From Bartonella callosciuri (GTDB lineage Bacteria; Pseudomonadota; Alphaproteobacteria; Rhizobiales; Rhizobiaceae), in NCBI RefSeq assembly GCF_014203215.1, contig NZ_JACHIM010000001.1, positions 1 through 64,000 on the forward strand: a DNA stretch of 64,000 nucleotides, given 5' to 3'. The translations under genes and the position numbers were made by a program. The notes beneath the pieces were generated by a model, which saw nothing but the letters and a program-made list of their open reading frames with translations, was not told the origin of the DNA and made no database searches. Below are positions 37,605 through 40,005 of the stretch, piece by piece; positions within the stretch are counted from its first letter, which is position 1, and the number at the start of each line of letters is the position of its first letter.

Positions 37605-38883
37605 AATAATTATATCAGTTTTAATCGTAATATTATCAAGTGAAGATATTTCCGTCTGCTTCTTGTTTTGAGTGCGATGAAGGGTAATTTATTGTGGCTT
37701 TTATTCATACGAAAATTCAATTGTTATGGGTCGTTTTTTGCATTAAGATTTTTTGCTTTTAGGTACAATAGGTTTATGGCATGTTATCTGCCTATTTGTC
37801 TGCCTATTATTGGCAAATGTCATTTGCCAAATAGGACATTATGCTCAAGTTTTTGTGCTTGTATTATAATACGGTTTATTCCCACACTTCTCTTTATAAT
37901 CGTTGGGATAGCAAGAACCTTAAGCGTATTTATATGAATCAGGTATCTACTCTTAGGAGAAGTATCACTTTGGGCAATCTTTTTATCTTTTAATGTTGTA
38001 TCTGGGAGCTAAGTGTGTTGCGCATTGGGGAATATATGAGTTTTTTTATTTGTCTGAGTTCTCTGTTTACGCAAGTGACATTTTAGAGATTTCACTTGTC
38101 ACGTGCGATAAGCTTGCATTGAGGTTTGCTTGTTTGGATGAAAAGATTATTTTGCTTTGGGTTGTTCAAAAGTGTATATAAGAAAGGATTTTTATGTCCG
38201 TCTCTTTTGAAGATTTTTGATGACGGAAAGATATAAATTTAAATATTATAGAGATCACTAGAGTATATGAATGCTTTTGATGTTCACTGTGATACGCTAT
38301 TTAAATGTGCATATTTCTATTCTCATATTATTATGAAAGTGTGTTTAAGAGCTTGAAAGCAAAAATGTAAAGCTCCTTTTTACTTGTGAGACAAGTGATA
38401 AAATATACTCTACTGATTTGTATTTTATTAGAAAATTACAGGACAGCTTTAGACTGGTTATATTTCAATAGAGACATAAAAATTTTTTATCTGTGAAAGT
38501 AAACATATTTGAGGCTCTGTATTTAGAGGTTTCTTCTCTTACTGCAAAACTCTCTCGGCATTACAGGGAGTGAAAGTATATACGAATATGGTCGTTGTTA
38601 TTAAAAAGCAGCCTCATAGTTTTTGAAAACTGTGGTGAGTAAGGAAAGCTTTTTAAGATATTATGTTAAAAGGTATTCTTAGTATTTTTGTGAAATGAGA
38701 TTATCATTTTAACTGTAGTCATTGCTTAGTCACAAAACTGTATTTATTTCGTTTAATTTTTTATTCTAATGGCAATATTTAGCGAATCGAGAATCAATCC
38801 ATAAAATTTATGATATTGCTGGCAAGAGAAGTTTCTCTTTTCTTTCTATAGCTTTATGAATTTATGAAATCAAAAAGACGAGA
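37605..38883 (+). other. 1.28-kb gene-free gap between ppiB and tgt (expected site of queA)
   Basis: Only short frames with odd composition occur here; none resembles a known protein, and I could not find QueA remnants by eye in any frame. Visible structure: a strong inverted repeat at 37803-37835, two direct copies of CTGCCTATT just before it, and AAGAGA (38824-38829) pairing with TCTCTT (38834-38839) just upstream of tgt. The gap is about the size of a queA gene (near 1.1 kb), which sits between ppiB and tgt in Rhizobiales relatives. Confidence 0.6.
37803..37835. repeat. Inverted repeat downstream of ppiB
   Basis: TTGGCAAATG (37810-37819), one central T, then CATTTGCCAA (37821-37830) make a perfect 21-bp palindrome. 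Outer CCTAT and ATAGG lengthen the stem to 15 pairs with a two-base bulge. No T run follows directly. It could be an operator, an extruding stem, or a terminator of the gyrA-coaD-ppi transcript working with another factor. Confidence 0.6.
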
Positions 38884-40005
38884 ATGATGATAAAGACATT
38901 TCATTATAGGAAAATTGCTCAAGATGGCTATGCGCGTCGTGGCGAAATCATAACGAGTCGTGGGTGTGTCCGCACACCCGCATTTATGCCAGTTGGGACG
39001 GCAGGAACCGTTAAGGCTATGTATATGGATCAGATCCGTGCTCTTGGAGCAGATATCATTTTGGGTAATACTTATCATTTAATGTTGCGTCCGGGGGCAG
39101 AGCGTGTTGCGCGTTTAGGGGGCTTACATGAATTTTCACGCTGGTTTGGACCTATTTTAACCGATTCTGGTGGATTTCAGGTTATGTCATTGGCGGGAAT
39201 CCGTAAAATTACAGAACAAGGTGTAATTTTTCGCTCTTATATTAATGGAGCGTACTATGAAATGAGTCCAGAGCGCTCTATTGAAATTCAAGGGCTTCTT
39301 AATGCGGATATCCAGATGCAACTGGATCAATGTATCGCATTACCTGCAAGTGAAAAAGAAATAGAAGCTGCTATGGAACTTTCATTGCGGTGGGCACAGC
39401 GTTGTAAAACAGCTTTTGGTGATCAGCCAGACAAAGCACTTTTTGGTATTGTTCAAGGCGGTGATAATATGAAATTGCGTGAACGTTCTGCCAAAGCATT
39501 AAAAGAGATGGATTTGAAGGGCTATGCTATTGGAGGGCTTGCAGTTGGTGAACCGCAGAGTGTTATGACAGCCATATTGGATGCTACTTGTCCGATTTTG
39601 CCAGAGGATAAGCCGCGTTATCTCATGGGGGTAGGAACACCTGATGATATTTTAAAGAGTGTTGCTCGCGGTATTGATATGTTTGACTGTGTGATGCCAA
39701 CACGTGCGGGACGTCATGGTTTAGCTTTTACACGCTTTGGGAGAATTAATTTGCGTAATGCACGTTATGCAGAAGATCCATATCCTCTTGATCCACAGTC
39801 GCTTTGTCCTGCTACATCTGATTATAGTTGTGCTTATTTGTATCATTTGATCAAATCTGGTGAATCTCTTGGTGGTATGTTGTTGACTTGGAATAATCTC
39901 TTTTATTATCAGAATCTTATGCAAGGAATTCGTGATGCCATTGAAGAAGGATGTTATGCTGACTTTTGCGCTGAAACTCGTGCTTTGTGGATGCAGGGAC
40001 GCTAA
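38884..40005 (+). CDS. tgt: tRNA-guanine transglycosylase with degenerate zinc site
   Basis: A 373-residue bacterial-type TGT that swaps guanine-34 for a queuosine precursor in GUN-anticodon tRNAs. Catalytic Asp94 (LTDSGGFQ), Asp148 (LDQC) and Asp268 (MFDCVMPTRAGRHG) are present, and the pocket keeps Cys150 and GGLAVGE, the preQ1-type signature. The zinc site is unusual: where E. coli has Cys302, Cys304, Cys307 and His333, this protein has Ser306, Cys308, Thr311 and Asn337. The Shine-Dalgarno is weak; the second ATG, three bases on, is an equal candidate start. Confidence 0.93.
   Translation: MMIKTFHYRKIAQDGYARRGEIITSRGCVRTPAFMPVGTAGTVKAMYMDQIRALGADIILGNTYHLMLRPGAERVARLGGLHEFSRWFGPILTDSGGFQVMSLAGIRKITEQGVIFRSYINGAYYEMSPERSIEIQGLLNADIQMQLDQCIALPASEKEIEAAMELSLRWAQRCKTAFGDQPDKALFGIVQGGDNMKLRERSAKALKEMDLKGYAIGGLAVGEPQSVMTAILDATCPILPEDKPRYLMGVGTPDDILKSVARGIDMFDCVMPTRAGRHGLAFTRFGRINLRNARYAEDPYPLDPQSLCPATSDYSCAYLYHLIKSGESLGGMLLTWNNLFYYQNLMQGIRDAIEEGCYADFCAETRALWMQGR

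Follow-up and report, generated by a model that had tools for sequence, protein, structure and literature searches.

The tgt gene of Bartonella callosciuri, encoding tRNA-guanine(34) transglycosylase (TGT), lies on the forward strand of the window, that is, the whole stretch of 64,000 nucleotides that was analyzed. The genome (1.74 Mb in 36 contigs) contains one copy of the gene. The features considered here are the following, all on the + strand.

37605..38883, +: a 1279-bp gap without assigned gene, in the place of queA (gene order coaD-ppi-ppi-gap-tgt)
38884..40005, +: tgt, tRNA-guanine(34) transglycosylase, zinc-less form (373 aa; TIGR00430, PF01702)
39799..39816, +: codons of residues 306-311 (S-L-C-P-A-T), where other TGTs have C-x-C-x2-C (1ozm alignment and translation)
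39829..39831, +: codon of Cys316 (alignment columns)
39892..39894, +: codon of Asn337, where other TGTs have the fourth ligand His (Zymomonas H349; translation and 1ozm alignment)

The identity of the gene was established by a score of 453.4 bits against the NCBIfam model TIGR00430, above the equivalog cut-off of 306.75, and of 490 bits for its product against the Pfam family TGT (PF01702). Among the best 80 of 589 named loci, the TGTs of B. elizabethae and B. koehlerae were 94% and 91% identical to that of B. callosciuri. The closest solved relative is the Zymomonas mobilis TGT (1ozm), which shows 56.9% identity across the aligned part.

In the alignment to 1ozm, the Zymomonas zinc ligands C318, C320, C323 and H349 stand opposite S306, C308, T311 and N337 of B. 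callosciuri TGT. The catalytic Asp94 and Asp268 are present, as are Asp148, Cys150 and GGLAVGE (217-223) of the preQ1 pocket; their Zymomonas counterparts are the catalytic pair D102 and D280 and the pocket residues D156, C158 and GGLAVGE. The alignment and the translation thus bear out what an earlier note had read from the DNA, namely the loss of three of the four zinc ligands and the integrity of the catalytic and pocket residues. The latter are nearly invariant: D94, D148, C150, D268, G217, G218, L219, V221, G222 and E223 were found in 202 of 202 zinc-less TGTs, that of B. callosciuri included, and A220 in 201 of them. A larger TGT set agrees, except for gene pieces and single rows. With Val221 in all 202 sequences, the pocket is not of the Chlamydia type (queuine type), GG[LS][AS]G, which lacks the Val of GGLAVG. 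In the accessible text of PMC6165067, the zinc site is called a hallmark of TGTs and human TGT has a Cys-Cys-Cys-His zinc site, in agreement with the Zymomonas ligands; that of PMC9508795 describes TGT as requiring zinc. The hallmark C-x-C-x2-C...H is missing from B. callosciuri TGT.

In order to follow the spread of this loss, TGTs were taken from genome draws at genus, family, order, class and phylum rank, and the four ligand columns were read in alignments. The ranks of the drawn genomes are kinship labels, and we take the order to be Hyphomicrobiales, as the named loci indicate. Not one of the 243 other genomes examined in this order carries the C-x-C-x2-C...H set (116 from the order draw, one from the phylum draw, 59 new ones from the family draw and 67 intact ones from the genus draw). 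The order draw comprised 120 genomes, 117 of them with tgt, including B. callosciuri; C,C,C,H was found in 0 of the 116 others. All 60 other genomes of the family draw, one of which also occurs in the order draw, are tgt-positive and none has the set. Among 70 other Bartonella, the 67 intact TGTs are likewise without it, 62 of them being S,C,A,N and five S,C,T,N; two of the remaining genomes have a broken tgt and one, 85% complete, gave no match. Since 0 of 243 genomes keep the four ligands, the loss is neither chance nor sequencing error. A loss particular to the B. callosciuri genome is ruled out by the same order-wide absence.

Some records were left out of these counts: L001 (B. callosciuri itself), L182 (the same genome as L044), L381 and L382 (the genomes of L112 and L113), the broken genes L379 and L380, the second or weak matches L431-L433, and the second match of G211. 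Three genomes (G029, G298, G342) were scored from gene pieces. Within the genome draws, a tgt match was absent from G181, G022, G044, G111, G325 and five class genomes.

Outside the order, the set is common. It is kept in 41 of the 51 other Alphaproteobacteria with tgt, ten being without it, and in 43 of 43 other Pseudomonadota with tgt (one of them in a split gene), many of which belong to few families. The best 80 of 589 named loci, partly the same genomes as the draws and therefore kept out of the 243, gave a similar distribution. In that sample, 59 of 59 loci labelled Hyphomicrobiales are without the set, and the zinc-less genera include Agrobacterium, Sinorhizobium, Brucella, Mesorhizobium, Methylobacterium, Bosea, Xanthobacter and Bradyrhizobium. 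The zinc-less form also occurs in a Geminicoccaceae metagenome bin and in five records that carry no label; 15 loci keep the set (six Rhodospirillales, three Acetobacterales, one Rhodobacterales, one SAR116, four unlabelled).

Several single sequences of these samples are worth recording. None of the four ligands is left in five Bradyrhizobium loci among the best 80 (L325, L326, L328, L329, L331), where Trp replaces the last Cys. The Geminicoccaceae bin (L335) carries a TGT of the Hyphomicrobiales zinc-less type, by transfer or on a wrongly binned contig. One alphaproteobacterium outside the order (G216) has two TGT genes: L238, with a rebuilt zinc segment whose ligand state varies with the alignment (SC-H or FECH) and was scored as not intact in both, and L431, divergent (266 bits) and also without the Cys set. 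Another alphaproteobacterium with a 1.4-Mb genome (G214) has a divergent TGT (L424) with C,L,I,Y at the ligand positions, probably a separate loss.

A tree of 111 rows was computed with the four ligand columns omitted; the search was quick, 56 of 108 inner branches stay open and the outgroup does not form one side of any branch. In this tree, the zinc-less TGTs form one clade of 62 rows (SH-aLRT 98) with no C,C,C,H row inside. The class members L158, L162, L166, L237 and L241 fall within it, and L236 and L238, surrounded by zinc-type rows, appear to represent independent losses; the positions of L157, L164, L166, L236, L237, L238 and L241 are unsure. Parsimony gave five changes of zinc state, which is a rough count only. 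The fourth position is His in some Rhizobium and Agrobacterium deep within the zinc-less clade, and this residue, with 7 parsimony changes, has therefore changed more than once.

A model of the B. callosciuri TGT was calculated with AlphaFold2 from 61 zinc-less sequences (mean pLDDT 90.9, and 94-97 over residues 301-340). It has the TIM-barrel fold of TGTs with the C-terminal helical subdomain, and superimposes on the Zymomonas TGT with Z 55 and 1.4 Å over 370 residues (Foldseek TM 0.94, 1.5 Å). A zinc-type control (L143 and 26 others, a shallower alignment of 27 sequences) gave Z 57 and 1.0-1.1 Å, so that the zinc-less model is slightly farther from the Zymomonas enzyme (1.4-1.5 vs 1.0-1.1 Å). 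The helices at the site match: 309-312, 316-324 and 328-355 in the zinc-less model, 317-321, 324-332 and 336-362 in the control. As AlphaFold2 is blind to metal and follows homology, the model allows only the conclusion that the sequence fits the standard fold. The proposal that this TGT folds differently finds no echo in the predicted structure, which is that of a standard TGT.

The former metal site retains a definite choice of residues. Over the 116 order TGTs, Ser306 is found in 104, Cys308 in 101 and Trp336 in 95; 102 have Ala, Ser or Thr at position 311, and 107 have Ala, Asn, Ile or Val at position 337. Such conservation suggests that the place is still under constraint, favouring a capped helix with small or apolar packing over metal ligands. 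For Zymomonas, the accessible text of PMC5395182 describes an aromatic hot spot of the dimer (Phe92, Trp326, Tyr330, His333), whose counterparts here are F84, Y314, Y318 and H321. Phe84 is near-invariant, Tyr314 occurs in 108 of 116 order TGTs, and Tyr318 and His321 in all 116; as these residues are kept, formation of the homodimer and preQ1 base exchange should be as usual. Elsewhere in the protein, at residue 278 of the PTR-x-GRH segment, most zinc-type TGTs (62 of 70) have Asn or Thr.

Zinc could still be bound in another way. A different Cys/His set might have taken it over, and three residues come into question: Cys308, in 101 of 116 order TGTs; His278, in 115 of 115 zinc-less TGTs of the order draw vs 7 of 70 zinc-type TGTs; and Cys316, in 47 of 67 Bartonella. 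However, Cys308 is replaced by Trp in the five named Bradyrhizobium (among the best 80 of 589 loci), Cys316 is confined to part of one genus, and His278 precedes the subdomain, in the PTR-x-GR segment, and also occurs in some zinc-type TGTs. Compensation across the order was ruled out, as no nearby column gains Cys or His, and we consider a substitute set very unlikely. Alternatively, the remaining Ser, Thr and Asn with one Cys and water would hold zinc weakly, making a poor site that is nevertheless in use. One Cys is indeed left, and Cys plus His in some Agrobacterium and Rhizobium. Among 219 of the 243 TGTs, one Cys/His remains at the four positions in 195 and two in 13. Against such a site, none remains in 11 of the 219, and 70 of the 116 order TGTs have Ala, Ile or Val at position 337; we regard it as very unlikely. 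The possibility that these genomes carry an additional TGT with zinc was also ruled out: tgt is single in B. callosciuri and no second full-length TGT was found in the 120 genomes of the order draw. Second matches in G057 (44.5 bits) and G025 (28.3 bits) are weak and partial, and the pair in G029 is one gene split over two contigs.

The state of the queuosine pathway was examined next to that of the ligands. A queA gene was found in 116 of the 119 other genomes of the order, and the three without it are also without a tgt match; queG was found in all 44 order genomes searched, one genome having been taken per family code. Among the best 80 of 589 named loci, queA lies at most 3 kb from tgt in 50 of 59 Hyphomicrobiales, and four of the nine without queA in the fetched 3 kb are Bartonella. 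A search of the B. callosciuri genome found no queA; of 71 Bartonella genomes including this one, 13 have a queA above the cut-off and 57 have no match. In the queA-bearing Bartonella L381 the gene order is coaD-ppi-ppi-queA-tgt, and remnants of queA are seen at the same place in the relatives L137, L139 and L275. The gap upstream of B. callosciuri tgt gave a marginal collinear match to queA (23.9 bits, against 23.5 for the best of 200 mononucleotide shuffles); given the gene order and the clearer remnants in relatives, it is probably the old place of queA.

The earlier note had asked whether loss of the ligands coincides with loss of queA and queG. It does not, the ligands being equally absent where both genes are present, and all 13 queA-bearing Bartonella TGTs are S,C,A,N. 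The note had also named, as evidence against its own reading, relatives that have these residues and an entire, active queuosine pathway; such relatives were found, as far as queA and queG are concerned. As the queA-bearing Bartonella and the other genomes of the order are equally ligand-less, Bartonella lost the pathway only after the zinc ligands had disappeared, and seemingly long after. The ligand loss is neither special to B. callosciuri nor tied to loss of the queuosine pathway.

Selection on tgt was estimated as dN/dS by the method of Nei-Gojobori. Comparison of the B. callosciuri gene with ten other Bartonella gave values of 0.045-0.132, dS being saturated in two further of the 12 pairs. 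These values are at or below those of four rhizobial pairs in which queA adjoins tgt (0.075, 0.083, 0.100 and 0.169); a Bradyrhizobium pair gave 0.133. Within Bartonella, four queA-less pairs gave 0.064-0.092, and the two queA-bearing pairs L113/L116 and L113/L124, which have one member in common, 0.028 and 0.030. The gene is under purifying selection, somewhat less so in queA-less than in queA-bearing Bartonella pairs.

These data bear on the possibility that the ligands were lost by relaxed constraint once the queuosine pathway had gone, the enzyme being on its way out. In its favour, queA is missing from B. callosciuri and from most of the genus, dN/dS is higher in the queA-less pairs, and the TGTs of queA-less Bartonella are farther from the Brucella TGT (mean distance 0.257, n=54) than those of queA-bearing ones (0.206, n=13). 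Moreover, tgt is in pieces in two Bartonella genomes, L379 (G151) and L380 (G161), in line with the published decay of tgt in B. quintana. However, the 13 queA-bearing Bartonella, and the order genomes with queA and queG, have lost the ligands to the same extent, the B. callosciuri gene is constrained at the level of the queA-linked rhizobial pairs, and Asp94, Asp148 and Asp268 are unchanged in 67 of 67 intact Bartonella TGTs. Relaxed constraint, one of the two readings first offered for this gene, is thus contradicted as the cause of the ligand loss and is highly unlikely as an account of it; it may hold for other changes.

A candidate for such a change is the replacement of Arg316. Cys316 is present in 47 of 54 queA-less Bartonella vs 0 of 13 queA-bearing ones, hence its frequency in the genus given above. 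Elsewhere, Arg or Lys is the rule at this position, being found in all 116 order TGTs and all 70 zinc-type ones; the larger set adds Leu in 4 phylum rows. Arg316Cys may be one event in one clade. At residue 320, B. callosciuri has Tyr where the 67 other intact Bartonella TGTs have His. A mild loosening after loss of the pathway, separate from zinc, is possible. In Bartonella, the change of Arg316 to Cys, and possibly a mild rise of dN/dS, tracks the loss of queA; the loss of zinc ligands does not.

Experimental results are available for two enzymes of the order. One of the collected sequences (L361), probably the B. henselae TGT, carries S,C,A,N at the four positions and shares 93% identity with that of B. 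callosciuri. According to the accessible text of PMC11570991, B. henselae TGT exchanges G34 for preQ1 in E. coli: it restored a queDF tgt mutant in part, at preQ1 concentrations as low as 10 nM. Use of queuine was seen at more than 500 nM, with B. henselae TGT and a B. henselae transporter together, and B. henselae tRNA contains trace preQ1. If this enzyme is representative, the zinc site is not needed for activity; the partial complementation would also fit a weaker enzyme. In Sinorhizobium, the S. kostiense TGT is zinc-less. Insertion mutants of S. meliloti in queC, queF and tgt are reported, in the accessible part of PMC3568095, to be defective in symbiosis, a queA mutant being little or not affected; in a HeLa cell assay, preQ1 rescued the queC and queF mutants and not those in tgt or queA. 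The tgt mutant was a plasmid insertion, and complementation was reported in that part for queF only. Zinc is not mentioned in the main text of PMC11570991 nor in the accessible part of PMC3568095.

Taken together, the tgt gene of B. callosciuri very probably encodes an orthologous, working TGT whose zinc site was lost in the common ancestor of Hyphomicrobiales, with few similar losses elsewhere in Alphaproteobacteria. A metal-free state is suggested by the residues themselves, their spread over the order, the coexistence with queA and queG, the preserved catalytic centre, the selection on the gene and the modelled fold. Since the enzyme apparently works without zinc-holding residues across the order, zinc seems dispensable. 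The other reading of the earlier note, a zinc-free TGT, is therefore supported at the level of sequence, and for the whole order; that it would be special to one Bartonella is not.

We propose that the C-terminal helical subdomain, which is pinned by zinc in other TGTs, would be held here by packing and hydrogen bonds. Ser306 probably caps the short helix 309-312, and the small or apolar residues at 308, 311 and 337, beside Trp336, would fill the former metal site. In the absence of queA, B. callosciuri TGT would most likely insert salvaged preQ1, and the genome retains a YhhQ/QPTR-type gene (PF02592). On a bolder and rather improbable version of this proposal, the Hyphomicrobiales TGTs would be a distinct metal-free class in which the rebuilt subdomain alters dimer contacts or substrate choice, contributing for instance to the unusual use of queuine by the B. 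henselae enzyme, with Arg316Cys in queA-less Bartonella as a second step.

Zinc binding by TGT has reportedly been addressed by mutagenesis of the ligands of the E. coli enzyme, in a study of 1995. With the TGTs of Zymomonas mobilis and E. coli, that of B. callosciuri has in common the family, the catalytic aspartates, the preQ1 pocket, the fold and the dimer hot-spot residues, as compared with Zymomonas only; those enzymes have a structural zinc site, whereas it has none. The B. henselae TGT (PMC11570991) belongs to the same genus and uses preQ1, and queuine at high concentration with a transporter. Zinc-less variants are also described in Zur regulons, in the accessible part of PMC2770081, for the HemB2, DksA and PyrC paralogues. 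These are likewise zinc proteins with replaced ligands and a function that is kept, at least sometimes. However, they are additional paralogues, for which induction under zinc shortage is predicted, whereas tgt is the only copy, with no zinc-dependent one beside it, and its zinc-less form characterizes an entire order; the term tgt is absent from the main text of PMC2770081. A partial search of the open-access literature, covering the accessible text of papers that included PMC5395182, PMC4425180, PMC9508795, PMC6165067, PMC13416341 and PMC10965804, found no account of TGTs without zinc ligands in Hyphomicrobiales. Ligand-free variants of zinc proteins are an already known theme; an order-wide, single-copy zinc-less TGT is apparently new, as we found no paper on it.

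A whole order that includes pathogens and plant symbionts thus appears to make queuosine without zinc in its TGT. This questions the assumption that queuosine synthesis in Hyphomicrobiales draws on zinc at the TGT step, and is a warning that an enzyme annotated by its family name may be credited with a cofactor that it lacks. It would also separate the job of zinc, holding the subdomain, from the needs of the enzyme itself, and it provides natural variants for probing the roles of the metal and of the dimer. For Bartonella, the loss of the zinc site can no longer be taken as a sign of decay, and attention is directed to Arg316Cys instead.
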